A stretch of 25,963 bases of DNA, taken from the IMG/VR virus record IMGVR_UViG_3300013120_001000, positions 1 through 25,963 of that record. One strand, written 5' to 3'. Of this stretch, positions 3,330 through 21,434 are shown in pieces. The notes under the pieces are model-generated. The model was given only the letters and a program-made list of their open reading frames with translations. It had not been told where the DNA came from and did not search any database. How positions within the stretch are numbered: position 1 is the stretch's first letter; each line of letters opens with the position of its first letter. Position numbers and translations under genes: made by a program. The DNA comes from a virus.

Positions 3330-3405
3330 GATTCGGCTCTCCGTAACCAGTGCCTCGTTGTCGCCCGGACCTTTCCCAAGCGTCTGAGGCAATGGTTGCA
3401 GCGCG

Positions 3406-3544: not shown

Positions 3545-3578
3545 GCGAAGTTTTCGGCCTCTGCGGCAATAAGCACTA
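3545..3578 (+). promoter_or_regulatory. 34-bp conserved element, early copy (candidate phage promoter)
   Basis: The block begins GCGAAGTTTT and ends GCGGCAATAAGCACTA. It matches 21401-21434 at 32 of 34 positions, in the same orientation, with differences only at its 11th and 14th bases. It starts immediately after the last TGGCACC of the operator cluster and lies 39 bases before the first early gene. A 15-base palindrome, GCAGGCA-A-TGCCTGC, follows at 3584-3598. A promoter role is inferred from placement before two separate modules. It could also be a conserved leader RNA or protein-binding site. Confidence 0.6.
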
Positions 3579-3617
3579 CGGACGCAGGCAATGCCTGCCA
3601 AACACGGGAGTCCGAGA

Positions 3618-4442
3618 ATGCCGCAGACAGACGAACACGGTGTACTGATCGACCTTGGCGTGCTAACCGCTGAGCCCGCAGAGGAATATCACGCCAAGGC
3701 CGGCGAGTTCCTTTCGAGCCATCAGCTGCTCGACTTCATGTCCTGCCCCTGGCTCTACCGAAAGAAGCGGCTCGGGCTGATCGGCGACGCCGACACGCCC
3801 GCGATGTTCATCGGTAGGGCCACCCACTGCCGGATCCTCGAAGGCCGAGACGCCTACGAAAGCCAATTCGCCTTTGGCGGCCCCGTCAACCCCAGGACCA
3901 ACAAGCCCTTTGGCTCGAACACAAAGGCCTTCGCCGAGTGGGCCCGAGCCCAGGGCAAGCCGGTTGTCTCACACGAGAATGTTGAACTCATCGAGCAGAT
4001 GGCCAGCGGCGTGGCCATGAACGATGAGGCGTGCGACCTGCTGCTGTACGGCCGCTCGGAGGGCGTCGTCCGTACCGAATACTGCGGGACACCGTGCCAG
4101 ATCCGGATCGACTGGACCCATCCGCACCGGGGAATTGTGGACCTCAAGACCACCAAGGACCTGACCTGGTTCGAGAATGAGGCCAGGCGCCGGCGCTACC
4201 ACAACCAGATCGCTTTCTACCAGGCCGTCCTGGGTGAGGTCGTGGGCCAGGCCGTTCCCGTCTACTTCATCGCCGTTGAAAAGTGCGAGCCGTTCCGCTG
4301 CGGCGTCTGGCGCGTCAGTGACGACACCCTCGCCATCGCCCGGCAGGAGAACGAGGCGGCGATCCGCCGGCTGCGCCGGGCCTCGGAGATCGACGCCTTT
4401 CCCACCGGCTACGAGGGCATCCGCTTCCTCGACTTCCCCTGA
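3618..4442 (+). CDS. PD-(D/E)XK exonuclease, RecE/exonuclease VIII-like
   Basis: A 274-aa nuclease, likely a 5'-3' double-strand exonuclease that makes 3' overhangs for phage recombination. It carries the RecB/RecE-type fold motifs: His70 in GRATHCRIL, Asp165 in QIRIDW, Asp175 and Lys177 in IVDLKTT, and the Q-x-x-x-Y motif QIAFY at 197-201. Its length matches the isolated C-terminal nuclease domain of RecE. The ATG at 3618 is preferred over an in-frame ATG nine codons earlier because GGGAG lies seven bases before it. It opens the early operon, downstream of the 34-bp element. Its recombination partner is probably the Sak4-like ATPase encoded next. Confidence 0.88.
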   Translation: MPQTDEHGVLIDLGVLTAEPAEEYHAKAGEFLSSHQLLDFMSCPWLYRKKRLGLIGDADTPAMFIGRATHCRILEGRDAYESQFAFGGPVNPRTNKPFGSNTKAFAEWARAQGKPVVSHENVELIEQMASGVAMNDEACDLLLYGRSEGVVRTEYCGTPCQIRIDWTHPHRGIVDLKTTKDLTWFENEARRRRYHNQIAFYQAVLGEVVGQAVPVYFIAVEKCEPFRCGVWRVSDDTLAIARQENEAAIRRLRRASEIDAFPTGYEGIRFLDFP

Positions 4443-4538
4443 TCCTCACTTCCGCCCGGGTGGGCCGGCGTGCCGTGCGGCAGGGATGCCATCACGGATG
4501 AACGCGGCCGGACTCCCACGTCCACCCGGGCGCTTTTC

Positions 4539-4611
4539 GGCAGGGCCGGGCTGTTCGGGGCTTCTTTGCTAAAGGGCCCCGAAGACGCGGGTTCGACTCC
4601 CGCACCTGCCA
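4539..4611 (+). tRNA. tRNA-like sequence with atypical D and anticodon arms
   Basis: The stretch is 73 bases, the usual tRNA length. A perfect T arm is present (GCGGG, loop TTCGACT, CCCGC; 4587-4603). The 3' strand ACCTGCC plus A (4604-4611) pairs six of seven bases with 5' GGCAGGG (4539-4545). No CCA is encoded. A TTGCTAA loop (GCT anticodon, Ser) can be drawn, but its stem has two G-T pairs and a C-C mismatch. The alternative stem CGGGG/CCCCG leaves a 16-base loop, and no normal D arm is seen. It fills most of the 228-base gap between the exonuclease and ATPase genes. It may be a divergent phage tRNA, a decayed tRNA or a tRNA-mimicking element. The rest of the gap (4443-4538 and 4612-4670) shows no gene. 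Confidence 0.4.
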
Positions 4612-4670
4612 TTCGGCTGGCCAGCCACATGTGACAGAACACGACAACCACGAGCAAGAAGGAATCGCCC

Positions 4671-5450
4671 ATGAGCTCGATGAAGCAAGTCCATAGCGGC
4701 CGACGCCACTCGCCACCGAGATTGCTGATCTACGGAACCGAGGGCATTGGCAAATCCACGACGGCGGCCGAGGCGCCGAGCCCGATCTTCGTTCCGACCG
4801 AGGACGGTCTGGACCAGATCGACTGCCATTCGTTCCCCCTGGCCCGCAACCTGGCCGACGTCCAGGCGGCGCTGCAGGCCCTAATCCAGGAGAAGCACGA
4901 TTTCGAGACGGTCGTCCTGGACTCGGTCGACTGGCTGGAACGCCTGGTCTGGGATTCCCTGTGCGAGCAGTATGGGGTGACCAGCATCGAGAAGGTCGAC
5001 GGCGGCTATGCCAAGGGCTACACGCACGCCCTGACGCCCTGGCGGTCGATCCTCAACGACCTCAACACCCTCCGCAGTCAGCGTGGAATGTGCGTGATCC
5101 TGCTGGCCCATGCCAAGGTCGAGAAATTCGACGACCCCGAGCATTTGGCCTATGACCGCTACTCGCCCCGCCTGCACAAGCACGCGACCGCCCTGATCAC
5201 CGAGTGGGTCGACGCCGTGCTTTTCGCCACACGCAAGGTCATCACCAAGACCGAGGACTCAGGCTTCAACCGCGAACGGACGATTGCGGCCGGGCTTGGC
5301 AAGGACGGCGGCGAGCGCATCCTTCGGTGCGTCGGCAACCCCGCCTGCGTGGCGAAGAACCGTTACAACCTGCCGGCCGAATTACCCCTCTCGTGGCCCG
5401 CCCTGATGCAGGCCCTCACCAGCGACACCACCCAGAACAAGGAGAACTGA
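4671..5450 (+). CDS. Sak4-like RecA-fold ATPase (phage recombination)
   Basis: A 259-aa ATP-binding protein of the AAA_24/Sak4 type, a RecA-like core used by phages for single-strand annealing or strand exchange. The Walker A motif is GTEGIGKST (22-30) and the Walker B strand is TVVLDSVDW (about 80-88). The region around CVILLAHAKVEKF may be the sensor strand. Size and motif order fit the family. A ribosome site (AAGGA) lies before the ATG. The gene is followed after four bases by the DUF669 gene, a pairing well known in phages, and is preceded by the RecE-like nuclease. Together these form a complete recombination module. The call is firm for the fold; the exact biochemical activity is inferred from family and context. 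Confidence 0.85.
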   Translation: MSSMKQVHSGRRHSPPRLLIYGTEGIGKSTTAAEAPSPIFVPTEDGLDQIDCHSFPLARNLADVQAALQALIQEKHDFETVVLDSVDWLERLVWDSLCEQYGVTSIEKVDGGYAKGYTHALTPWRSILNDLNTLRSQRGMCVILLAHAKVEKFDDPEHLAYDRYSPRLHKHATALITEWVDAVLFATRKVITKTEDSGFNRERTIAAGLGKDGGERILRCVGNPACVAKNRYNLPAELPLSWPALMQALTSDTTQNKEN

Positions 5451-5454
5451 GATC

Positions 5455-5913
5455 ATGGCAGACCTGAATGGATTCAACGCAAACGAAGTCGAACCCACCA
5501 CATCCTTCGACCCGGTCCCCGCGGGCAAGTACCTTGCGGCGGTCACCGAGTCGGAGATGAAGGCGACCAAGAGTGGCAACGGTAGCTACCTCCAGCTGAC
5601 CTTCACAATCGTCGAGGGCGAGTACAAGAACCGCGTCCTCTGGGCCCGGCTGAACCTCAACAACCCCAACGCCACGGCGGTCAAGATCGCCCAAGGCGAA
5701 CTGTCGGCCATCTGCCGAGCCGTCGGCGTCATGCAGCCCAAGGACAGCGCGGAACTCCACAATCTCCCCTTGATCCTTACGGTGAAGGTGAAGAAGCGTT
5801 CCGACACCGACGAGCTGACCAACGAGATCAAGGGCTACGAGGCCAAGGCCGCTGCCGCCGGTCAGCCGCAGCAGGCGCCGGCGACCGACTCGACGCCCCC
5901 GTGGAAGCGGTAA
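5455..5913 (+). CDS. DUF669 family protein, likely phage ssDNA-binding protein
   Basis: A 152-aa protein. The N-terminal SFDPVPAGKYLAAVTESEMK and the central GSYLQLTFTIVEGEYKNRVLW are typical of DUF669, a family regarded as phage single-strand DNA-binding proteins with an OB-like fold. An Ala/Gln/Pro-rich linker leads to a short end TPPWKR; a flexible tail of this sort often carries partner-binding residues in ssDNA-binding proteins. AAGGAG precedes the ATG by eight bases. The gene sits between the Sak4-like ATPase and RusA, so its job is most likely coating single strands during phage recombination and replication. Its stop overlaps nothing; RusA starts 11 bases later. Confidence 0.82.
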   Translation: MADLNGFNANEVEPTTSFDPVPAGKYLAAVTESEMKATKSGNGSYLQLTFTIVEGEYKNRVLWARLNLNNPNATAVKIAQGELSAICRAVGVMQPKDSAELHNLPLILTVKVKKRSDTDELTNEIKGYEAKAAAAGQPQQAPATDSTPPWKR

Positions 5914-5924
5914 GGGAGCGTCCG

Positions 5925-6347
5925 ATGGAACTGGTCCTGCCCTTTCCCCCGTCGGTGAACCACTACTGGCGGAAATGGCGTAACCGCATGGTCATCAGCC
6001 CCGAGGGCCGGGAGTACCGCACCGCCGTGTGCGGGCTCCTGGCCCCGGGCGGCGGCGGAATCCGTCGGCCGCCGATGGGCGGGCGCATCGCCCTGGCCAT
6101 GGACGCCTTCCCGCCAGACCGACGGCGTCGCGACCTCGACAACCTGCTGAAATGCAGCCAGGACTCCCTCGCCCACGCCGGGATCTACGAGGACGACAGC
6201 CAGATCGACATGTTGGTCATCCGTCGGCGCAGGCCCGTCAAGGGCGGAAGGCTCGACGTTCAGGTAGACCTGCTCCCGTGGCGTCGCTGCCCGCTTTGCG
6301 GCGGCAAGTTCCCCAACACAGAAAGCGAACATACCCATGACAACTGA
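5925..6347 (+). CDS. rusA: RusA family Holliday junction endonuclease with added zinc-binding tail
   Basis: A 140-aa junction resolvase. The hallmark segment RRRRDLDNLLKCSQDSLAHA, then GIYEDDSQID, holds the acidic residues (DLDN, D, EDD) that bind metal in RusA. The N-terminal LPFPPSVNHYW is also typical. RusA cuts four-way DNA junctions as a dimer, which suits a phage with its own recombination genes. The ATG at 5925 follows GGGAG; an earlier in-frame GTG would overlap the DUF669 gene. The C-terminus is unusual: after the resolvase domain comes CPLCGGKF and then HTH near the end, a C-x2-C ... H-x-H set that could hold a zinc ion. The gene overlaps the following ParB-like gene by 11 bases. 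Confidence 0.88.
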   Translation: MELVLPFPPSVNHYWRKWRNRMVISPEGREYRTAVCGLLAPGGGGIRRPPMGGRIALAMDAFPPDRRRRDLDNLLKCSQDSLAHAGIYEDDSQIDMLVIRRRRPVKGGRLDVQVDLLPWRRCPLCGGKFPNTESEHTHDN

Positions 6348-7107
6348 ACCCGAGACCTTGAGGCTCGACCAGATCCGCATCGACGGCGGCACGCAGCCGC
6401 GGGTGGCCATCGATGAGCAGGTCGTGGCCGACTACGCCGAGTTGTACGGCGCCGGCGTCAACCTGCCGCCGGTGACGGTGTTCTTCGACGGCGCGACCTA
6501 CTGGCTGGCCGACGGCTTCCATCGCTACTGGGCCAACAAGCGGATCGAATGCGAATACGTCCACGCGGATGTCCGCCAGGGCGCCCAGCGCGACGCGATC
6601 ATCCACTCGGTCGGCGCCAACGCCACCCATGGCCTGCGCCGCACCAATGCGGACAAGCGCAAGGCCGTGCTGACCATGCTGGAGGACGAGCAGTGGTCCG
6701 CATGGTCGAATCGAGAGATCGCCAAGCAGTGCGGCGTGAGCGAGTACATGGTCCGCAACACTCGCGAGAAGCTCACTGCGATTGAATCGCAGTCAGAATC
6801 GCAGGCGCGCACCTACAGGACCAAGCATGGCGACACGGCTCGGATGAAGACGGGCAAGATCGGCCGCTCGCGCAAACGGAAGTTCAATCCTACCGGCGGG
6901 ATCGCCAAGGGCGCGTTCCGTACCCGCCAGCCCCATTCCCAAGGCAGCCCCGTTCCCATGCGGAATGTCGACCTGCCTATCAACAACCCCCGGAAGGCCG
7001 CCCAGTGCATGTTCAGCGTCTACGGCGAGGAATACATGCGGGCGCTCTGTGACGAACTCAACTCCATTTTCAACAAGAAGAAGGGCGAACCCAATGACAG
7101 CGATTAG
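6337..7107 (+). CDS. ParB-like protein with N-terminal ParB/Srx fold and HTH
   Basis: A 256-aa protein. The N-terminal domain has GGTQPR (17-22) and DGFHRYWA (59-66), which match the ParB/sulfiredoxin-like fold, where the latter motif contributes to nucleotide binding. A helix-turn-helix follows (about 125-145, NREIAKQCGVSEYMVRNTRE). The middle is basic (GRSRKRKF), probably DNA-binding, and the C-terminus is helical. No parA gene is nearby, so plasmid-type partition is not indicated; phages carry many such solo proteins of unknown role. A perfect 19-base palindrome at 6775-6793 encodes the end of the HTH segment (TAIESQ). The gene overlaps RusA upstream and the second ParB-like gene downstream by 14 bases. 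Confidence 0.78.
   Translation: MTTEPETLRLDQIRIDGGTQPRVAIDEQVVADYAELYGAGVNLPPVTVFFDGATYWLADGFHRYWANKRIECEYVHADVRQGAQRDAIIHSVGANATHGLRRTNADKRKAVLTMLEDEQWSAWSNREIAKQCGVSEYMVRNTREKLTAIESQSESQARTYRTKHGDTARMKTGKIGRSRKRKFNPTGGIAKGAFRTRQPHSQGSPVPMRNVDLPINNPRKAAQCMFSVYGEEYMRALCDELNSIFNKKKGEPNDSD
6775..6793. repeat. 19-base perfect palindrome inside the first ParB-like gene
   Basis: ACTGCGATT and AATCGCAGT flank a single G. It lies just after the helix-turn-helix and is followed by a partial direct repeat (GAATCGCAG at 6796-6804). Its outline, ACTG-N5-G-N5-CAGT, is shared with the palindrome at 22178-22200. Confidence 0.6.
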
Positions 7108-7915
7108 CACCACCACCGATATCCGCACTACCTACATGGACGTGAATCCCGATGTGGCGATCCAGTGGCTTGAGGGCAATGTCCGCAACCGGAAGATCGA
7201 CCAGAAATGGGTCGACTATCTCGCCGCCGAGATGTCGGCCGGTCGATGGAAGACCACCCACCAGGGCCTCGCGTTTGACGGCAGCGGAACATTGATCGAT
7301 GGCCAGCACCGGCTCTGGGCGGTGATCCAGTCGGGCTGCACGATCCGTGTCGCCGTCTCGCATGGCCTCGATCCGGACGACATTGACAACATCGACGACA
7401 ACAAGCCCCGGAACAAGGCCACCCGCATGTCGCTGACCCGGAAGTTCGGCGATGAGGGGGTCAGCAAGAATCACACTGCCGCGTTGTCTGAGGCGGCGGC
7501 GGGCCTGAGTGGTTCGAAGAATCACACCTATCACCAACTCCGCGACCTGATGGAGCAGCACGTCGATGCCGCCCGGTTCGCCGTCTCGCATGTCTCGGCG
7601 CGGGTCAAAGGCGTGGGCGTGGCGTATGTCCGGGCGGTGGTGCTTCGAGCGTGGTACACCGTCGATCTCGACGACTTGTCCCGCTTCTGCCGTGTGCTCT
7701 CGTCAGGGATTCCCGAGTCTCCGCACGATGTGGGCATCATCAGGCTGCGGGATCACCTGATCACCGTCGGCGGCTTGAAGAACCCCGTCCTCCGACGGGA
7801 ACTGTATGCCAAGGTCGAACGGGTACTGATGACCTGGCTGAAGGGCGAAAGCCGCAAGAGCATCCGGCCCGTGCAGAAGGAGTACTTCCCCCTGCCCGAG
7901 GAAGTGAGCGCTTGA
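7094..7915 (+). CDS. Second ParB/Srx-fold-like phage protein
   Basis: A 273-aa protein. Its motif LIDGQHRLWAVIQSG (68-82) corresponds to the ParB-type G-x-HR-x-x-A motif, preceded by RWKTTHQGLAFDGSG. The next block, GLDPDDIDNIDDNKPRN, is typical of this group of phage proteins. The rest is helical without a clear named domain; an HTH is not obvious. The ATG at 7094 lies inside the end of the upstream ParB-like gene, with AAGGG eight bases before it. The two consecutive ParB-like proteins look like a functional pair, but they share only the motif and are not recent duplicates. The role is unknown; DNA binding or NTP-dependent regulation is possible. A small GCCCA/TGGGC hairpin follows at 7917-7931. 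Confidence 0.7.
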   Translation: MTAISTTTDIRTTYMDVNPDVAIQWLEGNVRNRKIDQKWVDYLAAEMSAGRWKTTHQGLAFDGSGTLIDGQHRLWAVIQSGCTIRVAVSHGLDPDDIDNIDDNKPRNKATRMSLTRKFGDEGVSKNHTAALSEAAAGLSGSKNHTYHQLRDLMEQHVDAARFAVSHVSARVKGVGVAYVRAVVLRAWYTVDLDDLSRFCRVLSSGIPESPHDVGIIRLRDHLITVGGLKNPVLRRELYAKVERVLMTWLKGESRKSIRPVQKEYFPLPEEVSA

Positions 7916-7973
7916 CGCCCAGGGGGTGGGCAAGCACGCGGGATCCAGCCACCTGTTTGGAGAGCAACTTACG

Positions 7974-8633
7974 ATGAACCAAAACCAACGCATCTACATT
8001 GCCGGGCCGATGACCGGTCTGCCCGAGCACAACTTCCCGGCCTTCCACGCGGCGGCCAAGCGCTTCCAGGAAGCGGGCTGGGAGACCGTCAACCCGGCGG
8101 AGAATTTCGACGGACGGACGGACCTGTCTCGCGAGACGTACCTTCGGGCCGACATCAAGCTGCTGGCCACCTGCGACGCGGTGGCCATGCTGCCCGGCTG
8201 GGAAGACTCGCGCGGAGCAAAGCTCGAGTATCTGATCGCCTGGGAACTCGCCATGCCGGTCCTCGACACCCAGACGCTGGACTCGCTTGAGCGCCCGGCA
8301 ACCCCGGCCGTCAACCTCCACCGCCTCGCCGTCGTTCGCGAGGAGCCAACCGAAGCGCCCGAGTCTGTGTTGGACGAGGCCAAACGCCTGACCGCCACGG
8401 ACCGGCAGCAAGACTACGGTCACCCGTTGGCGGACTTCACGCACACGGCGATGTTGTGGACGGGCATCCTCGCCGGGCGGCTGCGCAACGGCCAGCACAT
8501 CACGCCGATGGACGTGCCGCTATGCATGATCGCCGTCAAGCTTGCGCGTCAGGCCCATCGCCACAAGCGGGACAACCTGGTCGACATCGCCGGGTACGCC
8601 CGCACCGCCGCCATGGTCGCCGGAGAGGAATGA
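7974..8633 (+). CDS. DUF4406-DUF6378 fusion protein
   Basis: A 219-aa protein with two parts. Residues 1-95 (IYIAGPMTGLPEHNFPAF, then AMLPGWEDSRGAKLEYLIA) match DUF4406, a fold related to nucleoside 2-deoxyribosyltransferases. The AGPM loop and the SRGAKLE segment are the conserved positions. Residues about 130-217 (DYGHPLADFTHTAMLW, then DVPLCMIAVKLARQAHRHK) match DUF6378, a helical phage domain found alone elsewhere. A variable linker joins them. The first domain suggests an enzyme acting on a nucleotide or nucleoside; no substrate can be named. GGAGAG lies nine bases before the ATG. The stop is followed one base later by the start of the phosphoesterase gene. Confidence 0.75.
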   Translation: MNQNQRIYIAGPMTGLPEHNFPAFHAAAKRFQEAGWETVNPAENFDGRTDLSRETYLRADIKLLATCDAVAMLPGWEDSRGAKLEYLIAWELAMPVLDTQTLDSLERPATPAVNLHRLAVVREEPTEAPESVLDEAKRLTATDRQQDYGHPLADFTHTAMLWTGILAGRLRNGQHITPMDVPLCMIAVKLARQAHRHKRDNLVDIAGYARTAAMVAGEE

Positions 8634-8634
8634 T

Positions 8635-9405
8635 ATGGCCAAGGCGCACAGCAAGACATTCCTGGCCTTCGGCGATGTGCATGTACCGCACCAGAACGGC
8701 CCAGCCCTGGAGGTCTTCTGCCAGGCCGCCGAGCGCATTCGGCCCGACGTGATTGTCTGTCTGGGCGACCTGCTCGACTGCGGTCAGTTCTCCACGCACC
8801 CGCCGACGTACGGCCAGCCGGAGACGGACTATGTGGACGATCTCCGTATGGCCAACGAGCTGCTCGACCGCCTGCAGGCGACCTGCGGCCGGCTGGTCAT
8901 GGTCGAGGGCAACCACGAGTACCGCCTCGATCGCTGGGCGGCCGGAACGGCGGAGGGGCGCGGGGCATACTCGATGCTGGCTCCGCGCATCCGGCTCACT
9001 AAGGGCCGGTCGAAGTACACCTACGTCCCGTACGGGTCGGTCGCGGGGCGGTATCCCCACTACCAACTCAACAGTCGCGTGGTCGCGGTGCACGGTTGGT
9101 CGTACGCTCGGCACGCAACGAAGAACCACCTTCAAATCAGCCAGGGCAAGAGCGTCATCCACGGTCATACGCACCGAGCCGACGCCAGCATCATGCAGAA
9201 CATCTGGTCGCCGGGGAAGGTCATCCAGGCCCGCAGCTCCGGATGCCTGTGCAAGCCCATCCCGCTCTACGGCACCGGTAGGCCCGTCGAGTGGGTCAAC
9301 GCCTTCATCCTCGGCTACCTCGGTCGGCGCAGCGACACGCTTTACACGATCCCGATCCTGGGCGGACGCTGCATTCTGCCCGACGGCACGGAGGTGTCGG
9401 CATGA
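8635..9405 (+). CDS. Calcineurin-like metallophosphoesterase
   Basis: A 256-aa phosphoesterase with the full set of two-metal motifs in order: GDVH (13-16), GDLLD (44-48), GNHE (92-95), HGW (153-155) and GHTH (177-180). It would hydrolyse phosphomonoesters or phosphodiesters; the substrate is unknown. Phage members of this family are often linked to nucleic-acid end processing. GGAGAGG lies before the ATG, which begins one base after the previous stop. The last codons overlap the helicase start (ATGA). Together with the kinase encoded after the helicase, it could form an end-processing pair, but that is inference. Confidence 0.88.
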   Translation: MAKAHSKTFLAFGDVHVPHQNGPALEVFCQAAERIRPDVIVCLGDLLDCGQFSTHPPTYGQPETDYVDDLRMANELLDRLQATCGRLVMVEGNHEYRLDRWAAGTAEGRGAYSMLAPRIRLTKGRSKYTYVPYGSVAGRYPHYQLNSRVVAVHGWSYARHATKNHLQISQGKSVIHGHTHRADASIMQNIWSPGKVIQARSSGCLCKPIPLYGTGRPVEWVNAFILGYLGRRSDTLYTIPILGGRCILPDGTEVSA

Positions 9406-11129: not shown

Positions 11130-11139
11130 GGTAGCGGCC

Positions 11140-14164: not shown

Positions 14165-14271
14165 CATGGTTCCTTCCCGGGCAGTCCGGGAGTTGATGCC
14201 GGGGGGAACAGTCGCGTCCCCAGACAGAGTTACTTTTGACTGTCCGGTTTTTTGACAGGAGACCTCGATGC

Positions 14272-14619
14272 ATGAACACAGTGAGACCCAAACGCACGGC
14301 AGACCCTTGGCGAAGGACGGCCACTCACCTTGTCGGCCGGCTTCGCACGGACTACCGCAACAGCCAGGTTCTTCGGGACCCGTGGTCCCGGGCGGCGCGC
14401 TGCATGGTGAACGGGTGGCGCATCCGTCTCAGCCGCCCACCGGCGAAAGGGAACGCCCGCGTCGCCCCCAGGCCAACGTGGCGGGTGTTTGCCAGCCGGG
14501 CTGCGGGGATCGCCGCCACAAAGGCGAACCACGCGAGGCGAACCGCCTGGCACCTGTGGGCCACGCGGCGAGTGTCGGCGGGCAGTCGGTACATCCCCAA
14601 GCGCAGTCGCAGCTGGTAG
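14272..14619 (+). CDS. Small basic hypothetical protein
   Basis: A 115-aa protein rich in Arg and Trp (PWRRTATHLVGRLRTDYRN, RCMVNGWRIRLSR, TAWHLWATRR). I recognise no family. Its charge suggests nucleic-acid binding, but this is inference. AGGAGA ends nine bases before the ATG at 14272. Codon third positions are mostly G or C, as in neighbouring genes. An alternative ATG at 14268, four bases earlier and in another frame, opens a 207-aa reading that ends with the HNH domain. That frame has weaker third-position GC and a low-complexity Pro/Gly/His-rich N-terminus, so I prefer this one. Confidence 0.5.
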   Translation: MNTVRPKRTADPWRRTATHLVGRLRTDYRNSQVLRDPWSRAARCMVNGWRIRLSRPPAKGNARVAPRPTWRVFASRAAGIAATKANHARRTAWHLWATRRVSAGSRYIPKRSRSW

Positions 14620-14639
14620 GCGCCGCCCCGCATGGCTCC

Positions 14640-14891
14640 GTGTCCACGGGCAACGTGCTGCGCCTGCTGGAGCATCAGCAGTACCGCTGTGCCCTAACCG
14701 GCCGCAAGCTGACACCGCAGACCGCCGCCATCGACCATATCGTGCCCGTTCGCCGGGGCGGCGAACACGTCATTGAGAACGCCCAGATCCTGCACAGGGA
14801 TGTGAACCGGGCCAAGGGGTCGATGACCAGCGACGAGTTCACCTGCATGTGCCGTGAAGTCGTTCGCTGGTCTGACTCTCCGATTACTTGA
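14640..14891 (+). CDS. HNH endonuclease
   Basis: An 83-aa HNH-type nuclease domain. It has CALTG (17-21), DHIVPV with the general-base-like His33, Asn47 in ENAQILH, and the third position around DVNRAKG (54-60). HNH proteins cut DNA with one metal ion; in phages they often assist packaging or act as homing nucleases. The first C-x-x-C zinc pair found in many HNH proteins is absent (CALTG). The start is uncertain. GTG at 14640 begins just before the domain but lacks a good ribosome site, and the same frame is open back to an ATG at 14268, giving 207 aa. The following methyltransferase gene begins 11 bases after the stop. Confidence 0.72.
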   Translation: MSTGNVLRLLEHQQYRCALTGRKLTPQTAAIDHIVPVRRGGEHVIENAQILHRDVNRAKGSMTSDEFTCMCREVVRWSDSPIT

Positions 14892-14902
14892 AAGGAACTG
14901 CA

Positions 14903-16246
14903 ATGACCACTACTACACAGAAGTTCGCTGTCGTGTTCCGCAAGATCGACGCCATCCGACCGTACGAGCGGAACCCCAGGATCAACGACCCGGCCGTGGA
15001 CGCCGTGGCGGCCTCGCTTGCCGAGTTCGGCTTCCGCCAGCCGATCGTGGTCGATGCCGACGGCGTGATCATCGCCGGCCACACGCGGTGGAAGGCGGCG
15101 AAGAAGCTGGGCCTGGCCAAGGTGCCGGTCCACGTGGCCACCGACCTGACGCCCGAGCAGGTCCGGGCGTACAGGATCGCTGATAACAAAACGAGCGAGC
15201 TGGCGGAGTGGGACTTCGAGATCCTGCCCATCGAGCTGGCCGAGCTGCGCGAGGGCGGGTTCGACATGAGCATGCTCGCCTTCGACGATGACGAGCTGGC
15301 CAGGCTGCTCACCGAGGGGATGGGCGTAACCGAGGGCCTGACCGACGCTGACGCCGTACCCGAGCCGCCGGACGATCCCGTCACGCAGCCCGGCGACCTG
15401 TGGATCCTGGGCGACCATCGCCTGCTATGCGGCGACTCGGGCAGCGCCGAGGATCTGGACCGGCTGCTCGACGGGAACACAATCGATTTAGTGAATATGG
15501 ACCCGCCGTATAATGTCAAGGTCGAACCGCGATCGAACAATGCCATCGCCGCCGGCCTGTCGTCGTTCAGCAACACCCACCACCAGGGCCTGGACCTGGC
15601 GCGTCACCCGAAGAAGGCCAAGGCCACACACAAGAAGATGCGGGCCAAGGATCGGCCGCTTGAGAACGACTTCGTCTCGGACGAAGCCTTCGACGAGATG
15701 CTCCTGGCCTGGTTCCACAACGCCTCGCGCGTGCTCAAGCCGGGCGGGTCGTTCTACATTTGGGGCGGGTACGCCAACCTGGGCAACTACCCCGCGCCGC
15801 TGAAGGCCGCAGGGCTGTATTTCAGCCAGGCGGTCGTGTGGGACAAACAACATCCAGTGCTCACGCGGAAGGACCTGATGGGAGGATTTGAACTGGCGTT
15901 CAAAGGCTGGAAGGAGGGCGCAGGGCACCACTTCTACGGCCCCAACAACGCCACGGACCTCTGGCACGTCAAGAAAGTCAACCCCCAGTCGATGATCCAC
16001 CTGACCGAGAAACCCGTCGAGCTGGCGGTCCGGTCCATCCAATACTCGTCCAAGCCAGGTGAGAACGTGCTGGACCTGTTCGGTGGTTCGGGCTCGACAC
16101 TGATCGGCTGTGAGCAGACCGACCGGCGGGCGTTCTTGATGGAGATCGATCCCCCGTATTGTGACGTCATCGTCCAGAGGTGGGAGGAGTTCACGGGCAA
16201 GAAGGCCGAGCGTGTCCCGGCCGGGGCTGCGGAGGTGCTGGCATGA
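14903..16246 (+). CDS. ParB-domain DNA methyltransferase (N4/N6 type, beta class)
   Basis: A 447-aa fusion. The N-terminal ParB-like domain contains FGFRQPIVVDADGVIIAGHT and AGHTRWKAAKKLG (58-70). The methyltransferase domain follows, with the catalytic DPPYN (200-204) upstream and the AdoMet-binding DLFGGSGST (391-399) downstream, which is the beta-class order. TEKPVEL (368-374) is the usual neighbour of motif I. It should methylate adenine or cytosine amino groups at a specific site; the target is not readable from sequence. Such orphan methylases can protect phage DNA from restriction. AAAGGA lies before the ATG. No cognate restriction enzyme is adjacent; the HNH gene upstream is small and not clearly a partner. 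Confidence 0.92.
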   Translation: MTTTTQKFAVVFRKIDAIRPYERNPRINDPAVDAVAASLAEFGFRQPIVVDADGVIIAGHTRWKAAKKLGLAKVPVHVATDLTPEQVRAYRIADNKTSELAEWDFEILPIELAELREGGFDMSMLAFDDDELARLLTEGMGVTEGLTDADAVPEPPDDPVTQPGDLWILGDHRLLCGDSGSAEDLDRLLDGNTIDLVNMDPPYNVKVEPRSNNAIAAGLSSFSNTHHQGLDLARHPKKAKATHKKMRAKDRPLENDFVSDEAFDEMLLAWFHNASRVLKPGGSFYIWGGYANLGNYPAPLKAAGLYFSQAVVWDKQHPVLTRKDLMGGFELAFKGWKEGAGHHFYGPNNATDLWHVKKVNPQSMIHLTEKPVELAVRSIQYSSKPGENVLDLFGGSGSTLIGCEQTDRRAFLMEIDPPYCDVIVQRWEEFTGKKAERVPAGAAEVLA

Positions 16247-16665
16247 GCGACCGGGCACCGAATCGGCCAGCGGGTGTGGGCAAGGTGCTTCAGGACTTGC
16301 TGGACTACCAACTCCGCAATGAGGTCATTGGCGGCGTCTCTTTGGCGGAAGTTCTTGACTGTGTGGATCTGGACGTGGCGTACAGCCCGGTGGTCGAGTT
16401 TTCGGTTGATGACGACTGGCCGAGGCCGGAGCAGTTGTGCGTGACGACCCTGATCAAGCGCGACGACGGCCGGTACGAGGCGCGTCGCCAGACCGACGCG
16501 GGGCCGACGTTCGACCTCTTCGGCCCAGAGCAGGTTCGCATTATGCGCGCCCGGTATCTGCTCTGCCGCGACCACTTCGCCAAGTCGATCGAGCAATACA
16601 GCTACCCGCAGCAGCAGCGGATTCTGGCCGGTTTCTTCCCCCACGGGCTCTGGAGGCCGAGGTGA
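16243..16665 (+). CDS. Hypothetical phage protein
   Basis: A 140-aa protein that I cannot assign to a family. It starts with an ATGA overlap on the methyltransferase stop and ends with a GTGA overlap on the next gene, which supports it as real. The sequence is soluble and mixed: VGKVLQDLLDYQLRNEVIGG at the N-terminus, an acidic middle (DDDWPRPEQL), and a C-terminal helix-like segment (RARYLLCRDHFAKSIEQYS). No signal peptide, membrane segment or metal motif is seen. Confidence 0.65.
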   Translation: MSDRAPNRPAGVGKVLQDLLDYQLRNEVIGGVSLAEVLDCVDLDVAYSPVVEFSVDDDWPRPEQLCVTTLIKRDDGRYEARRQTDAGPTFDLFGPEQVRIMRARYLLCRDHFAKSIEQYSYPQQQRILAGFFPHGLWRPR

Positions 16666-16904
16666 TCTTCCACCCGCGAATCGGACAGCACGTCCGCATG
16701 CACTACGCCAAGCGGTCGGCGGCCGTCATGCCGCACCACGGCAAGACGGGCGTCGTGCGAGTCGTGTCCCCAGGGCCGGGGCCTCGGAATGCCGGTGTGG
16801 AAATTGACGGGCGGCTCGCGGTGATCCCCCGTGGGAACCTGGTGGCCACGGAGAGGCCGAAGAACACCCCGGCGCGGGCCGGGGTGTCGAAGGAGGGTGC
16901 GTGA
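16662..16904 (+). CDS. Small protein with possible KOW/SH3-like barrel
   Basis: An 80-aa GTG-initiated protein. The pattern IGQHVRMHYA, then HHGKTGVVRVVSPGPGPRNA, VEIDGRLAVIPRGNLV resembles a KOW or SH3-like barrel, where a Gly-x-Val-x-x-V strand pair is followed by a strand carrying a basic loop. Small phage proteins of this shape are common and their roles unknown. It overlaps the preceding gene by four bases (GTGA). A 10-bp hairpin falls within its last codons, and it converges with the HARE-HTH gene nine bases after its stop. Confidence 0.6.
   Translation: MIFHPRIGQHVRMHYAKRSAAVMPHHGKTGVVRVVSPGPGPRNAGVEIDGRLAVIPRGNLVATERPKNTPARAGVSKEGA
16864..16887. terminator. Candidate terminator hairpin between convergent operons
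   Basis: The perfect 10-bp arms ACACCCCGGC (16864-16873) and GCCGGGGTGT (16878-16887) enclose a GCGG loop. It lies at the meeting point of the early plus-strand operon and the minus-strand cassette. There is no T run on either side, so intrinsic termination is uncertain, and the hairpin overlaps the end of the upstream gene. Confidence 0.4.
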
Positions 16905-16913
16905 ATGGTCGTC

Positions 16914-17483
16914 TCAGCGTTTCAGGCTCAGGGAGAATCGGCCCCGCTCGACCTTCTCGAAGCGGCTGTCGTCGCCCTTGGTGTTGATCTCGCGCAGGAT
17001 CGCGGAGTAGAGCGTGTTGGCCGGCGTCTTGCCGCCCCGGGCGGGCGTCCAGTAGCCCTTGGCGGCCATGCGCTCGATCATCTGCTTGCAGTTCAGCGGG
17101 CCATCGGCGGGATCACGTTCCTTGAGGACCTTCGCGGCCGCGCTGAGGGCCGAGAGGCGTTTGGGCCCGCCCGAGGGCGCGCCACTTTCGCCCGTGTCGC
17201 GATGTGTCGCGGCCTTTGCCTTCGTGGCCGCCGGTCGGGTCTTCTTGGCCTTGGGGGCCGACTTGGCCATGGCCCGTTTGCTGGCGCCCGTGCCGCTCTT
17301 GCCGGGCGCCCGCGTCTCGTGGCGAAGGCGCTGGGCGCTCTTGATGCGCACCTTCTTGCCCGTGGTGATGTTCGTCGCTTCCCAGCCACCGTGCGGGCTC
17401 TCCGCGTCGATCCGGATGGTCGCCATGCGGCCGCTGACCTTCGCGGCGTAATGCGTCCCGGTCTTGATCTCGTTCTTCTTCAT
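16914..17483 (-). CDS. HARE-HTH domain protein
   Basis: A 189-aa protein with three parts. The N-terminal ~50 residues (GWEATNITTGKKVRIKSAQR) form a conserved small domain of unknown role. A long Lys/Ala/Pro-rich linker (about 55-105) looks disordered and DNA-contacting. The C-terminal region (about 107-187) fits the HARE-HTH winged-helix fold: LSALSAAAKVLKER, then LNCKQMIERMAAKGYW, TPANTLYSAILREI, and FEKVERGRFSL. HARE-HTH domains occur in restriction enzymes and chromatin factors and are thought to sense or bind modified DNA. GAGGAGA precedes the ATG. It is the last gene of the minus-strand cassette. Regulation of phage or host DNA is a reasonable inference, no more. Confidence 0.82.
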   Translation of the reverse strand: MKKNEIKTGTHYAAKVSGRMATIRIDAESPHGGWEATNITTGKKVRIKSAQRLRHETRAPGKSGTGASKRAMAKSAPKAKKTRPAATKAKAATHRDTGESGAPSGGPKRLSALSAAAKVLKERDPADGPLNCKQMIERMAAKGYWTPARGGKTPANTLYSAILREINTKGDDSRFEKVERGRFSLSLKR

Positions 17484-17511
17484 CGTTCGATCTCCTCTTG
17501 CTGCGGGCCTG

Positions 17512-17700
17512 TTACGAGGCCCAGTCCTTCAGGAATGCGACCCACTCGTCGCGGGTCATCGGTTCGTGTGCTTCGGTTGCCCCGTCGTCCTCGACCCGCC
17601 ACAACGATGCGTCGACGTGGTCGGTCGACACGCGGACGGTCCCGCGTGCGAGTCGGTTGGCCTCGCGGATCGTCAGGGGCTTGTCCTTGCCCCGGTTCAC
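17512..17700 (-). CDS. Small hypothetical protein
   Basis: A 62-aa GTG-initiated acidic protein. The middle (RGTVRVSTDHVDASLWRVEDDG) looks like beta strands, and the C-terminus (MTRDEWVAFLKDWAS) like one helix. No family recognised. It overlaps the stop of the 93-aa gene (GTGA), and GAGGAGG lies upstream, which supports translation. Confidence 0.55.
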   Translation of the reverse strand: MNRGKDKPLTIREANRLARGTVRVSTDHVDASLWRVEDDGATEAHEPMTRDEWVAFLKDWAS

Positions 17701-17978
17701 AGGCCCACCTCCTCGGCCAGGCGGCTCTGGGCCTTGGCGCCGCCGAGCGTCTCGGTGAGCTGCTCGGCAAACCAGCGGACCTCCTCGTCCACGTCCTGAT
17801 CGCCCGTTCGGACCGGCTGGAGGAACGAGACGATCGTCGCGACGGCCTGCGGGGTGAGGTTGTCCTGAATCCAGTCCCGCAGGACATCCGGCTCGTCGTC
17901 TTCCGGGACGGTCACCCGGACCGTCCGCCCGTTGGCCTCGACCGGGTACGTTCTGGGCTTGTTGGGTTTCTTTGCCAT
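17697..17978 (-). CDS. Small hypothetical protein
   Basis: A 93-aa acidic protein starting MAKKPNKPRTYPVEANGR. The first 30 residues are strand-like (RTVRVTVPED), the rest helical (DVLRDWIQDNLTPQAVATI and DEEVRWFAEQLTETLG). No family recognised. GGAG precedes the ATG, and its stop overlaps the 62-aa gene start. It is the third gene of the minus-strand cassette. Confidence 0.6.
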   Translation of the reverse strand: MAKKPNKPRTYPVEANGRTVRVTVPEDDEPDVLRDWIQDNLTPQAVATIVSFLQPVRTGDQDVDEEVRWFAEQLTETLGGAKAQSRLAEEVGL

Positions 17979-18004
17979 GGTTTACTCCTTGTGCTCGAGG
18001 GTCT

Positions 18005-18043
18005 GGCCTATCCAGGCCCCGGCGCTGGCCCGCCGCGGCGGGC
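18005..18043. other. Paired GC hairpins in the gap between two cassette genes
   Basis: The 81-base gap has two inverted repeats: GGCCT/AGGCC with a four-base loop (18005-18018) and the 16-base palindrome GCCCGCCGCGGCGGGC (18028-18043). On the minus strand they follow the 95-aa gene and precede the ribosome site of the 93-aa gene. They could slow or stop transcription, but no T run follows. Confidence 0.35.
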
Positions 18044-18059
18044 TCGCGTCGAGGTCCGG

Positions 18060-18347
18060 TCAGTCGGCCAGCATCTGGATGGCCCCGCAGTAGTCGTTAA
18101 CGTCGCTGTTGGTGCCCTTCTGCCCGTCGAGGGCGTGCTGGAGGATCTCGGCCATCGACCAGATGTCGTCGGGGTCGTCGGCCCCAACCTTGTGTGTCCG
18201 CTCGCCCGCGTGGGTGAGCAGTTCGACGGTGATGAACTCGTCGCCGTCCGTCCGGCTGATCTTGGCGAAGGCCCGGGGGAGCCCGGCGGATCCGTCGCGG
18301 AGGGTGGTTCTGCTGCTTCCGGCCAGTTCGATGCTCGTAATGCGCAT
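18060..18347 (-). CDS. Small hypothetical protein
   Basis: A 95-aa protein: MRITSIELAGSSRTTLRD, then AFAKISRTDGDEFITVELL and a C-terminal helix (DDIWSMAEILQHALDG). The first part looks like a short beta sheet. No family recognised. The ATG at 18347 is chosen because AGGAGA lies just before it; a TTG five codons earlier would read through that ribosome site. Confidence 0.6.
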   Translation of the reverse strand: MRITSIELAGSSRTTLRDGSAGLPRAFAKISRTDGDEFITVELLTHAGERTHKVGADDPDDIWSMAEILQHALDGQKGTNSDVNDYCGAIQMLAD

Positions 18348-18374
18348 GGTCTTCTCCTTCAAGGTTCGTGGCGT

Positions 18375-18566
18375 CTACTCGCCCTTGCCCGCGAGGCGTC
18401 CGGCCTCGTAGGCAGTCTTCAGGGCCTTGGCGATGCTCCAGACCGCCAGATCGTGGAAGTCCAGCTCGTCGCTCCTTCTGGTCTCGAGTGTCTCGACGCC
18501 CAGAGCGTCCCGGGCGATCTCGGCCAGGGCGTTGTCGCGTTTGGCGGTCCTGCGTTGTTCGTTCAT
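18375..18566 (-). CDS. DUF6900-like small protein
   Basis: A 63-aa protein. The line ALAEIARDALGVETLETRRS, then DELDFHDLAVWSIAKALKTA, resembles DUF6900, a short family of unknown function found on phages, plasmids and other mobile DNA. The assignment rests on recall of the LETR..D.LDFHD.AVWS pattern. GGAGA precedes the ATG at 18566; an upstream in-frame start is less likely because it would include the ribosome site. It is the first gene of the minus-strand cassette, next to the divergent control region. Confidence 0.6.
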   Translation of the reverse strand: MNEQRRTAKRDNALAEIARDALGVETLETRRSDELDFHDLAVWSIAKALKTAYEAGRLAGKGE

Positions 18567-18693
18567 CGCTATCTCCTTGTTTTCAAGTCGTTTACGTTCG
18601 CCATCCAACGCTCACATGTTACCTCGAATTCCGGACTCATCAAGGCAATTAAGTCCCTTTATGATAAGAAGTTGCAGATTCTGGTAAGTCGCC
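18567..18693. promoter_or_regulatory. Divergent intergenic control region before the packaging genes
   Basis: This 127-base gap separates the minus-strand cassette from the terminase genes and is more AT-rich than its surroundings. GCTCACATG at 18610-18618 repeats nine bases of the operator cluster at 3498-3506. GGACT and AGTCC (18633-18637, 18652-18656) form a short inverted repeat. TATGAT (18660-18665) could be a plus-strand -10 box, but no good -35 box is seen. No copy of the 34-bp element is present here. Confidence 0.45.
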
Positions 18694-18912
18694 ATGACAC
18701 AAAGACATGACACCCCGAAATCCCTGAAGATCACGGCCATTTCCGTGGCCGACGCGGCCAAGGTGCTGGCCTCGGCCTACGGGCGGCGCGTGACGGAAGA
18801 GCAGGTCCGCGAGATTGCCGATGCGGGTGGTCTGCTTGCCCCCGACGGGACGATCAACCTGCTGGAATACGCGGCATATCTGGTGCGGGAGCTGGCCCAT
18901 GGAAGCGATTAA
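18694..18912 (+). CDS. Small TerS-like protein, related to the N-terminus of the next gene
   Basis: A 72-aa protein. Residues 16-67 (SVADAAKVLASAYGRRVTEE, QVREIADAGG, INLLEYAAYLVREL) align with residues 12-62 of the terminase large subunit encoded next (SVLARLLNSVGQGEVISERQ, LRRHRNRAG, VDLFRYAAWLTLEY). Shared positions include the Leu-x-Ser-x-x-Gly core, E-x-QlR, AG, and YAA-x-L. Both look like a compact helical DNA-binding unit. By position, directly before TerL and overlapping it by 14 bases, it may be the small terminase subunit or its DNA-recognition part; this is inference. The ribosome site is weak. Confidence 0.6.
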   Translation: MTQRHDTPKSLKITAISVADAAKVLASAYGRRVTEEQVREIADAGGLLAPDGTINLLEYAAYLVRELAHGSD

Positions 18913-21181
18913 CCCGCGCCGGCTGAAGCCCTCCGTCCTGGCCAGGCTGCTGAACTCCGTGGGCCAGGGCGAGGTAATCTCCGAGCGCCAGCTCCGCCGG
19001 CACCGCAACCGGGCCGGCTACACCATTGGCGACGCCAAGACGGTGGACCTGTTCCGTTACGCCGCCTGGCTGACGCTGGAGTATCTTTCGCCAAAGAGGC
19101 CCAAGGAAGAGCCCGCCAGCTACGAGGAGGTCAAGCGCCGCCAGGCCGAACGGAACGCCGAGTTGGTCCGCGCCGCCCAGGACATCGGCGAGATCCCCGA
19201 CGTGGTCGATCCCGAGCGGAGGGCCCGGGCGGAAGGCTCGTTCCGCTTCTTCTGTGAGACGTACTTCTCGGAGGTCTTCTACCTGTCGTGGTCGAACGAC
19301 CACCTCCGGGTGATCGACAAGATCGAGAGGGCCGTCCGCACGGGCGGGCTGTTCGCCATGGCCATGCCGCGTGGCAGTGGCAAAACCGTCCTGTGCCAGA
19401 CGGCGGTGGTGTGGTCGGCGCTGATCGGGGCGACGCCGTTCGTCTGCCTGATCGCCGCCTCGGCAGAGCGCGCCAAGGACCTGCTGGAGAACATCAAGGT
19501 CTGGCTGGAGACCAACCCACTCCTGCATGCCGACTTTCCCGAAGTGACGTACCCTATCCAGTGCCTCGAGCGGATCACGAACCGCCAGAAGGGCCAGAAG
19601 CACAACGGCCAGCCGACCCGCATCGAGTGGACGTCGGACAGAATCGTCCTGGCGACCATCGCGGCTTCCAAGGCCAGCGGGGTGGTGATCTCCAGCTCGG
19701 GCATGAAGGGCTCGGACATCCGCGGGCAGAACTACGCCCGCGCCGACGGCAAGGTTGTGCGCCCGCAGCTCGTGCTGGTAGATGATCCGCAGACGACCGA
19801 ATCGGCATGGTCGCCGTCGCAGTCGCAAAGGCGCGAGTCGATCCTTGCCGGCGACGTGCTCGGCATGGCCGGCCCTGGCAAAAAGATCGCCGGGCTGATG
19901 GCCTGTACCGTCATTCGCCCCGACGACATGGCCGACCGCCTGCTCGACCGCGACAAGCACCCCGAGTGGCAGGGCGAGCGGACGAAGATGGTCTACTCGT
20001 TCCCGTCCAGCGAGAAGCTATGGGCCCAGTATGCAGAGATCCGCTCCGATAGCCTTCGCAATGACGGCGACGGTTCAGCAGCGACCGCTTTCTACCAGGC
20101 CAACCGCGAAGCGATGGACGCCGGCGCGGTGATTGCCTGGCCCCAGCGCCACAACGATGACGAACTGTCGGCCCTCCAGCACGCGATGAACCTGAAGCTC
20201 CGCGACGAGGCGGCGTTCTTCGCCGAGTACCAGAACGAGCCCATCGTCGAGGTGCTGGGCGAGGAGATGCTCACCGCCGACCAGATCGCCGCAAAGCTCA
20301 ACGGCTACAAGCACGGCGAGGTCCCCCTCGGCTGCAACCACCTGACGATGTTCATCGACGTGCAGCAGAAGGTCCTGTTCTGGCTACTCTGCGCGTGGGA
20401 GGAGGACTTCACCGGCTACGTGATCGACTACGGCGCCTGGCCCGAGCAGAAGCGGACGTACTTCACATTGCGGGATATCCGCTCAACGCTCGGACGGGCC
20501 ACCCCCGGCGCGGGGCTGGAGGGGCAGATCTACGCGGGGCTGGAGAAGTTGACGGCCGAGCGGCTGGGGAGGGCCTACCGACGCGAGGACGGCGCCGAAA
20601 TGCGGATCGACCGCTGCCTGATCGACGCCAATTGGGGCCAGAGCACGGACGTCGTCTACCAGTTCTGCCGCCAGAGTTCATTTGCAGGGATCCTCTTGCC
20701 CAGCCATGGCAGATATGTGGGCGCTTCCAGCGTGCCCTTCAGCGAATACAAGCGCAAGCGCGGCGACCGTGTCGGCCTGCACTGGCGAATCCCCAACACC
20801 ACCGGCCGCCGCCAGGTTCGTCACGCACTGATCGACACGAACTACTGGAAAACGTTCGTCCACGCCCGCCTGGCCGTCGCCATGGGCGACCCCGGATGTC
20901 TGTCACTTTCCGGCCGCGATGATTCTGCCAAAAGGGCCCACCGCTTGCTGGCGGACCACCTGACGGCCGAGTACCGAGTCCAGACCCTCGCCCGGGGGCG
21001 GACGGTCGATGAATGGAAGCTCCGCGCCACACGCCCGGACAACCACTGGCTGGACTGCCTGGTTGGCTGTGCGGTGGGTGCTTCCATCCAGGGCGCGGGC
21101 CTGCCCGGCGTGGCGGCCCTGGCAGTTCAGCCCCGCAAGCCGCTTCGGCTGTCGCAGCTCCAGCGGGGCAAGCGCGCATGA
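18899..21181 (+). CDS. Terminase large subunit with N-terminal helical extension
   Basis: A 760-aa packaging motor and nuclease. Walker A is MPRGSGKT (156-163), and the Walker B strand is LVLVDDPQ (291-298). The C-terminal nuclease half has acidic positions in MFIDVQQK, RCLIDANWGQ and DNHWLDCLVG. The motif layout suggests a GpA-like/large phage terminase that cuts and pumps DNA into procapsids. The first ~65 residues are an extra helical unit resembling the upstream 72-aa protein. GGGAG lies before the ATG at 18899, which is inside the end of the small gene. Its stop overlaps the zinc-ribbon gene (ATGA). Confidence 0.9.
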   Translation: MEAINPRRLKPSVLARLLNSVGQGEVISERQLRRHRNRAGYTIGDAKTVDLFRYAAWLTLEYLSPKRPKEEPASYEEVKRRQAERNAELVRAAQDIGEIPDVVDPERRARAEGSFRFFCETYFSEVFYLSWSNDHLRVIDKIERAVRTGGLFAMAMPRGSGKTVLCQTAVVWSALIGATPFVCLIAASAERAKDLLENIKVWLETNPLLHADFPEVTYPIQCLERITNRQKGQKHNGQPTRIEWTSDRIVLATIAASKASGVVISSSGMKGSDIRGQNYARADGKVVRPQLVLVDDPQTTESAWSPSQSQRRESILAGDVLGMAGPGKKIAGLMACTVIRPDDMADRLLDRDKHPEWQGERTKMVYSFPSSEKLWAQYAEIRSDSLRNDGDGSAATAFYQANREAMDAGAVIAWPQRHNDDELSALQHAMNLKLRDEAAFFAEYQNEPIVEVLGEEMLTADQIAAKLNGYKHGEVPLGCNHLTMFIDVQQKVLFWLLCAWEEDFTGYVIDYGAWPEQKRTYFTLRDIRSTLGRATPGAGLEGQIYAGLEKLTAERLGRAYRREDGAEMRIDRCLIDANWGQSTDVVYQFCRQSSFAGILLPSHGRYVGASSVPFSEYKRKRGDRVGLHWRIPNTTGRRQVRHALIDTNYWKTFVHARLAVAMGDPGCLSLSGRDDSAKRAHRLLADHLTAEYRVQTLARGRTVDEWKLRATRPDNHWLDCLVGCAVGASIQGAGLPGVAALAVQPRKPLRLSQLQRGKRA

Positions 21182-21357
21182 AGCCGCAGGCCATGACCGC
21201 CGCGAAGGCGTCCCCGCACGTGGGCCTGGTCTGCCGGGACTGCGGGTGCCGGCACTTTCTGACCGTGTACACCCGTCCGCGGAATGACGGAATTGTTCGC
21301 CGGAAACGCTGCCGCAACTGCGGCAGAGCGGTCACGACTCGCGAGAAAATCGTCTGA
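21178..21357 (+). CDS. Small zinc-ribbon protein
   Basis: A 59-aa protein with Cys19/Cys22 in VCRDCGC and Cys45/Cys48 in RCRNCGR, separated by a basic loop (RPRNDGIVRRKR). The pattern C-x2-C, RP-x-x-DG-x-x-RRK-x-C-x-x-CG-x-x-x-TTRE resembles the N-terminal zinc ribbon of NrdR. It also recalls the small zinc-finger activators (Ogr/Delta type) of other phages, though it is not clearly one of them. It overlaps TerL (ATGA) and is directly followed by the second 34-bp element, so a role in switching on the head genes is an inference from position. Confidence 0.7.
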   Translation: MKPQAMTAAKASPHVGLVCRDCGCRHFLTVYTRPRNDGIVRRKRCRNCGRAVTTREKIV

Positions 21358-21359
21358 AA

Positions 21360-21399
21360 TACCATATCTGGTACGTTCTCCCCTTTCTGGCGGAAAGGG
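21360..21399. promoter_or_regulatory. Two inverted repeats before the late 34-bp element
   Basis: TACCA-TATC-TGGTA occupies 21360-21373. CCCTTTC (21381-21387) and GAAAGGG (21393-21399) form a perfect 7-bp stem with loop TGGCG. They end one base before the conserved element, like the operator cluster before the early copy. They may be operators or a terminator for the upstream transcript; a TTTT follows only after eight bases. Confidence 0.45.
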
Positions 21400-21400
21400 C

Positions 21401-21434
21401 GCGAAGTTTTGGGGCTCTGCGGCAATAAGCACTA
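21401..21434 (+). promoter_or_regulatory. 34-bp conserved element, late copy (candidate phage promoter)
   Basis: It matches 3545-3578 at 32 of 34 positions in the same orientation. The shared parts are GCGAAGTTTT, CTCTGC and GGCAATAAGCACTA. It lies 33 bases before the first head-module gene. GGGCGC (21436-21441) and GCGCCC (21450-21455) form a hairpin after it, as a palindrome does after the early copy, though the hairpin sequences differ. A shared promoter for the phage sigma-like factor is the simplest reading, not proven. Confidence 0.6.

Follow-up and report, generated by a model that had tools for sequence, protein, structure and literature searches.

Genes and repeated element in the window

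The analysed stretch of DNA, here called the window, comprises 25,963 bases and is an entire IMG/VR virus record (Table 1). The gene of a predicted sigma-70-family factor lies divergent from the early module, which opens with an exonuclease VIII-like gene. Downstream of the sigma gene and co-oriented with it, a large serine recombinase is encoded. A terminase gene is found just upstream of a second intergenic region, which is followed by a small ORF and the portal gene.

Table 1 Features of the window and of the repeated element
Feature	Position	Strand	Basis or occurrence in related loci
Large serine recombinase	603..2144	-	Pfam Resolvase 8e-36, Recombinase 5e-16
Predicted sigma-70-family factor (ECF-like, regions 2 and 4), 200 aa, GTG start; proposed reader of both elements	2814..3416	-	
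Operator-like array of TCACATGA/TCATGTGA repeats, sigma gene to early element	3447..3530	.	Sequence
Early copy of the element	3544..3578	+	Same place in L064, L067, L068, L071, L037 and others
Early copy, -35-like block CGCGAAGTTTT	about 3544-3554	+	
Early copy, -10-like block GCGGCAATAAGCAC	about 3563-3576	+	
First early gene, exonuclease VIII-like / DUF3799	3618..4442	+	Pfam 5e-28, phrog_412 2e-42
Sak4-like annealing ATPase, early module	4671..5450	+	phrog_124 3e-44
Single-strand DNA-binding protein (DUF669), early module	5455..5913	+	phrog_6015 2e-48
Palindrome TACCATATCTGGTA, about 30 nt 5' of late element	21360..21373	.	Sequence
Late copy of the element, 5' of small ORF and portal	21400..21434	+	Same place in L003, L005, L007, L009, L010, L012, L042
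Late copy, both blocks	about 21400-21410 and 21419-21432	+	
Small conserved ORF directly 3' of late element	21468..21665	+	ORF list; kept before portal in related loci
Portal protein	21662..23146	+	Pfam Phage_portal_2 1e-56

One element occurs twice in the window, in the same orientation and with 17,856 nt between the copies. The segments 3545-3578 and 21401-21434 are identical at 32 of 34 positions, as an earlier note on this DNA had reported together with the common orientation and the distance of about 18 kb. The consensus of both copies is CGCGAAGTTTT[C/G]GG[C/G]CTCTGCGGCAATAAGCACTA, and the longest span of the repeat covers 42 nt (38/42, 90% identical). With the two differing positions freed, the pattern was found twice in the window and in none of 100 dinucleotide shuffles; the chance expectation for such a pair is zero. 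A scan of the whole window gave no third copy, the next-best site being at noise level. The ATG (3618) that opens the exonuclease/early module follows copy 1 after about 40 nt, and the small ORF starts with its ATG (21468) about 34 nt after copy 2. The former label "head genes" for the second module holds insofar as the portal module follows copy 2, but directly downstream are the small ORF and the portal gene, and the terminase lies on the upstream side.

Further sequence features were observed near the two copies. The array upstream of the early copy contains half-sites of TCACATGA in direct and inverted orientation and probably represents candidate repressor sites, as judged from its sequence. 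Equivalent phage-specific arrays are present in four other loci (L067, L272, L273, L299); in relatives with a divergent sigma gene, arrays of other sequences occupy this position, like immunity operators. The palindrome upstream of the late copy may be the site of a second regulator. In G003, G005, G030 and G076 a palindrome likewise precedes the late element by some tens of bases, its sequence outside the window being, for example, GTTCCAGTATTGGAAC or GTTCTACATGCGGAAC. Between the exonuclease gene and the next gene, a tRNA-like sequence (GGCAGGGCC...GGTTCGACTCCCGCACCTGCCA, 4530-4615) was noticed, which was not called by ARAGORN.

Element in related phages and host genomes

The core 20-mer of the element was detected in nine viral contigs and, with one position freed, also in planctomycete MAGs. 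In true relatives with visible context the element was always situated at one or both of the same two places. Both copies together were found in the viral contig IMGVR_UViG_3300037483_001267 and in the Planctomycetales MAG contig DAOWOP010000008.1.

To cover more distant phages, 160 related viral loci were fetched, 80 around exonuclease and 80 around portal relatives. These phages carry a different element sequence at the same two places, and at least nine sequence classes were distinguished: A, GCGGCAATARGCA; B, GCGGGTAATCAC; C, CGGCAAATAAC; D, GCATAGGTAAC; E, CCGGGTAA(N)TNAC; F, GCAGATGTAG; G, GTAATAACT/TATAGAGGG; H, GCAAAAAGACAA; and J, ACGAAAAAACAATA. A contig scan with a looser pattern returned only class A, since the -10 block is also different in the remaining classes. 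The long identity including the spacer is a trait of the class of the window. Thus, the conserved span of 34 bp described before is valid within this class, but across the classes only two inner blocks are constrained.

Where early loci extend far enough upstream, a sigma homolog adjoins the exonuclease gene in nearly all of them, either divergently or just upstream in the same direction. For portal contigs, a search with a single sequence missed most sigma relatives; more were found with a family HMM. No element was recognised in six early loci having upstream sequence and no sigma homolog (L116, L118, L125, L130, L139, L140). Seven early loci possess a sigma homolog and no element recognised by pattern (L080, L084, L107, L114, L117, L131, L133); L107 shows a plausible variant. 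The element is present in G043, and no sigma gene lies in its 22.7-kb fragment. In two loci the sigma homolog immediately precedes the small ORF and portal instead of adjoining the exonuclease (L186:2329-2811, L220:2241-2810).

An exonuclease relative was identified in 27 of 294 Planctomycetota genomes. With an adjacent sigma homolog, a class element or near variant was usually visible (L272-L275, L281, L287-L289, L299, L300); at the host-genome exonuclease loci without one, no element was recognised. For L304 (G320) the best match of the early element within 19 kb, 25 of 28 positions, lies 256 nt before the portal gene.

Several arrangements were seen beside these classes. In the late region of G078 (L248), class F and class H follow each other in tandem before the head genes, as if this region were fireable by two sigma factors. 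Class-E early elements upstream of the exonuclease are situated inside long inverted repeats (L102, L100, L096, L098, L093). The arms of about 10-15 bp, e.g. CCGTTTTCCCCTG...CAGGGGAAAACGG, mirror the -35 block and are missing from the late copies; this arrangement could be a two-way promoter. Furthermore, a tRNA-Met (CAT) occupies the place of the late element before the small ORF and portal in L155 (2723-2794), L163 (2724-2795) and L190 (2724-2795), and likewise in L209-L211 and L213-L216 (about 2650-2810; L215:1237-1310). On the contigs of eight tRNA-Met phages (G021, G032, G044, G045, G046, G048, G050, G051), which are possibly fragments, no sigma or exonuclease homolog was found. Located where the late operon begins, this tRNA could act in place of a promoter or as a processing substitute, or represent a relic of an attachment site.

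Early and late copies within one phage

The two places were compared in 21 further phage contigs with both modules on one contig; G094, with a short portal fragment only, was left out. The best 24-nt match between early and late region of the same phage averaged 19.45 of 24, a value reached in 0 of 100,000 permutations of the pairing (permuted mean 15.97, sd 0.39). After thinning of close relatives to 14 phages, the mean was 19.0 versus 16.0 permuted (again 0/100,000). Hence, early and late copies are alike within a phage and different between phages. No clear match was seen for G064, G066, G072, G077, G090, G096 and G100 despite the presence of both modules.

Eight other phages were scanned as a whole with their own element. 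Two strong sites and otherwise noise were obtained, except for G033 and G062. The third site in G033 (L261, contig position 51415) precedes excisionase-like and integrase-like proteins, and a weaker third site in G062 (L253, contig position 26498) precedes a phrog_11806-like gene and a serine recombinase; these proteins were named from their translated sequences. Strong copies in the window and in these scanned phages are directed towards phage modules and none towards the sigma gene, where operator-like arrays are found in the divergent classes.

The form of the element was examined with 15 early/late pairs, which were aligned on the -10-like block alone, leaving the second block unanchored. 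Within this alignment a 7-nt block (-19 to -13) showed an identity of 0.87-1.0 and a 14-nt block (0 to +13) an identity near 1.0. In the variable spacer between them identity fell to 0.27, and the background further out was near 0.3. Judged by sequence, this pattern would look like a -35 element, a spacer, and a -10 element with discriminator; it would not be expected from a structured RNA.

Common variation of sigma factor and element

When the nine element labels are placed on the sigma tree (48 phages), 8 changes are required, which is the minimum possible (shuffled labels: mean 31.9, minimum 25), the classes having been defined on the same data as used for this test. The same labels need 23 changes on the tree of the exonuclease, although in most phages only a few dozen bases separate the element from the start of this gene. 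Sigma distance and similarity of the late element were correlated as well (Mantel r 0.54). The partial correlation was unchanged at 0.54 with portal distance controlled (0 of 5,000 permutations), and no correlation was seen between sigma and portal distances (r 0.03). Therefore, the relatedness of whole phages is not the cause of this correlation. Physical linkage of the early element to the sigma gene could by itself keep both together, but the late copy about 18 kb away and the contrast with the exonuclease tree argue against such an explanation. The check proposed in the earlier note thus gave a clear answer: in related phages the element occurs at the same two sites, accompanies a sigma homolog and varies with it class by class.

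The product of 2814-3416 was identified through its family, since the protein of the window alone stays below the curated cut-off for sigma families. An alignment of 55 homologs (A1) displays regions 2 and 4. The full-length sigma70-ECF model TIGR02937 and the PHROG sigma factor family phrog_1740 each match 51 of the 55 homologs, Pfam Sigma70_r2 33 of them. Profile matches in the PDB are ECF sigma factors (CnrH, E 2e-10, and also SigE). The AF2 model of the window protein is all-helical with a mean pLDDT of 90, consisting of two confident helical parts and a weaker linker. The top Foldseek matches are the ECF sigma factors SigL, SigE and SigH (E about 1e-3, probability near 1). Their whole-chain TM is low, which would be expected from a different placement of the two domains. 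No match at E 0.01 was obtained for the window protein in a collection of 50,697 phage records. Regions 2 and 4 without region 3, as typical for ECF factors, are thus found in this family, and a subgroup-specific -35/-10 promoter would be given by the two-block element that varies with the sigma phylogeny. According to profiles and model, the gene formerly noted as sigma-like is predicted to encode a true sigma-70-family factor of ECF-like type with regions 2 and 4.

Alternative explanations

The protein could instead be an activator binding to the element, comparable to late regulators of the RinA/ArpU kind, with a host sigma factor making the start. Only an HTH is recognised by Pfam in the window protein, and two of the 55 homologs weakly match phrog_836, a family of late transcriptional activators of phages. 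The sigma models matched by most homologs and the fold matches to ECF factors speak against an activator, and the spacing of the two blocks fits recognition of -35 and -10. RinA/ArpU families were absent among the families listed for the window protein and the 25 most frequent homolog families (Pfam, NCBIfam, PHROGs). We regard this explanation as improbable, albeit the best of the alternatives.

Still less probable is a conserved leader RNA, the other option named in the earlier note; it would head both transcripts, for instance as a put-type antiterminator or a riboregulator. The two different hairpins mentioned there were found again, GCAGGC-aat-GCCTGC from about 3585 after copy 1 and GGGCGC-n8-GCGCCC from about 21436 after copy 2, but they fold only slightly better than shuffled sequences (z -2.5 and -1.2, respectively). 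Late copies of the window class contain an inverted repeat GGCTCTGC...GCAGAGCC extending to the ribosome-binding site, and the inverted repeats around several class-E early copies would also fit an RNA; the former is missing in the early copies and broken in L004, and no structure is common to early and late leaders. Rfam scans of the window and 15 relatives gave no relevant match; a plant miRNA model scoring below threshold in the window was attributed to chance. Moreover, compensatory changes are not what separates the classes: from one class to another the element sequence is exchanged wholesale, along with the sigma protein.

A promoter of the host flagellar sigma factor (sigma-28/FliA type) has the consensus TAAAGTTT-N11-GCCGATAA. 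The spacing and a partial match, AAGTTT-N11-G(G)CAATAA, are given in class A of the window and in class C only; other classes (CTGCAAAAAGACAA, TGCAGATGTAG, GCATAGGTAAC) are unlike this consensus though the phages are closely related. The element follows the tree of the phage sigma factor, and this candidate was rejected with hardly any probability left to it. A promoter of the T7/T3/SP6 type, suggested by starts with TATAGAGGG in some classes, was dropped too: the spacing varies between the classes, covariation with the sigma factor explains the data, and none of the scanned window proteins resembles a phage RNA polymerase.

A dispersed host repeat, feared earlier as the finding that would speak against a promoter, is largely refuted, because the 2.7-Mb Planctomycetales MAG carrying the prophage contains only two matches (up to 3 mismatches), both inside the prophage. 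A recombination or packaging site could make use of a near-identical pair at module boundaries for module exchange, but the orientation towards a start codon at short distance, the bipartite conservation and the covariation with the sigma factor leave this reading, like the host repeat, practically without probability.

Proposed function

The element, with its position, its pairing, its two-block form and its class-wise covariation with a factor of sigma fold, is very probably a virus-specific promoter, and we consider it highly likely that the ECF-like product of the sigma gene (2814-3416) recognises this promoter. The earlier proposal of a phage-specific promoter for both modules gains support from the covariation. 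The sigma gene would probably be held off by a repressor at the array 3447-3530. Upon induction the factor would be made, bind the host core RNA polymerase and the DNA of the element, and direct the polymerase to the copy before the recombination/early module as well as to the near-identical one before the small ORF and portal. Both modules could then be fired together by one factor, with transcription presumably starting a few bases 3' of the -10-like block. In relatives, factor and elements appear to have diverged jointly into at least nine specificity classes and to move between phages as a matched set.

A further step is proposed tentatively, with slightly less than an even chance in our estimation. 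Sigma factor and matched early and late, sometimes also integration, promoters may form an interchangeable transcription code, diversified into at least nine specificities that do not recognise one another and exchanged between phages, with the effect that prophages residing together would not fire each other's modules. The promoters of ECF subgroups are largely orthogonal (PMC3817407). By analogy, no cross-activation between the sigma classes is predicted.

The system is likely a master switch of these Planctomycetota prophages, which form a large and uncultured group. It would provide naturally occurring pairs of sigma factor and promoter, the specificities of protein and DNA having evolved jointly many times at one locus, and both the specificity code and the orthogonality between co-resident prophages are directly testable. 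For genome reading, a matching pair of two-block elements, one before the exonuclease module and one before the portal module, might serve to predict from sequence alone where an uncultured phage has its two main promoters.

Comparison with known systems

Phage sigma factors are already known, but literature searches on planctomycete prophage sigma factors returned nothing on the family found in the window. Hence, it is regarded as a new family of ECF-like sigma factors in prophages, strongly diversified and accompanied by matched promoters at two sites.

Xpf serves as a late positive factor in the prophage PBSX. For this protein of Bacillus subtilis the term sigma-like prophage factor is used (PMC4243946). 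Both systems comprise a prophage-encoded sigma-like regulator of prophage functions. In contrast to Xpf, the family described here belongs to a different host phylum, has two or three matched promoters per phage including that of the recombination/early module, and has diversified its specificity family-wide.

T4 gp55 and SPO1 gp28/gp34 are phage sigma factors (PMC9429907) and likewise redirect the host RNA polymerase to phage promoters. T4 and SPO1 are lytic with sequential middle and late classes, whereas here one factor of a temperate phage appears to serve the early recombination and the head modules. Sporulation-like phage sigma factors are also phage-encoded proteins of the sigma-70 family, but act on host sporulation genes (PMC9429907); here the predicted cognate promoters lie in the phage itself.

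A resemblance in form is also given by ECF sigma factors with subgroup-specific promoters (Rhodius et al. 2013, PMC3817407), which share the two-domain structure of regions 2 and 4, the pair of -35 and -10 motifs and the subgroup-specific promoter motif. In contrast to these, the factor of the window is phage-borne, the promoters proposed as its targets serve phage modules separated by about 18 kb, none of the strong element copies in the window points towards the sigma gene, and closely related phages differ in specificity at a single gene position.
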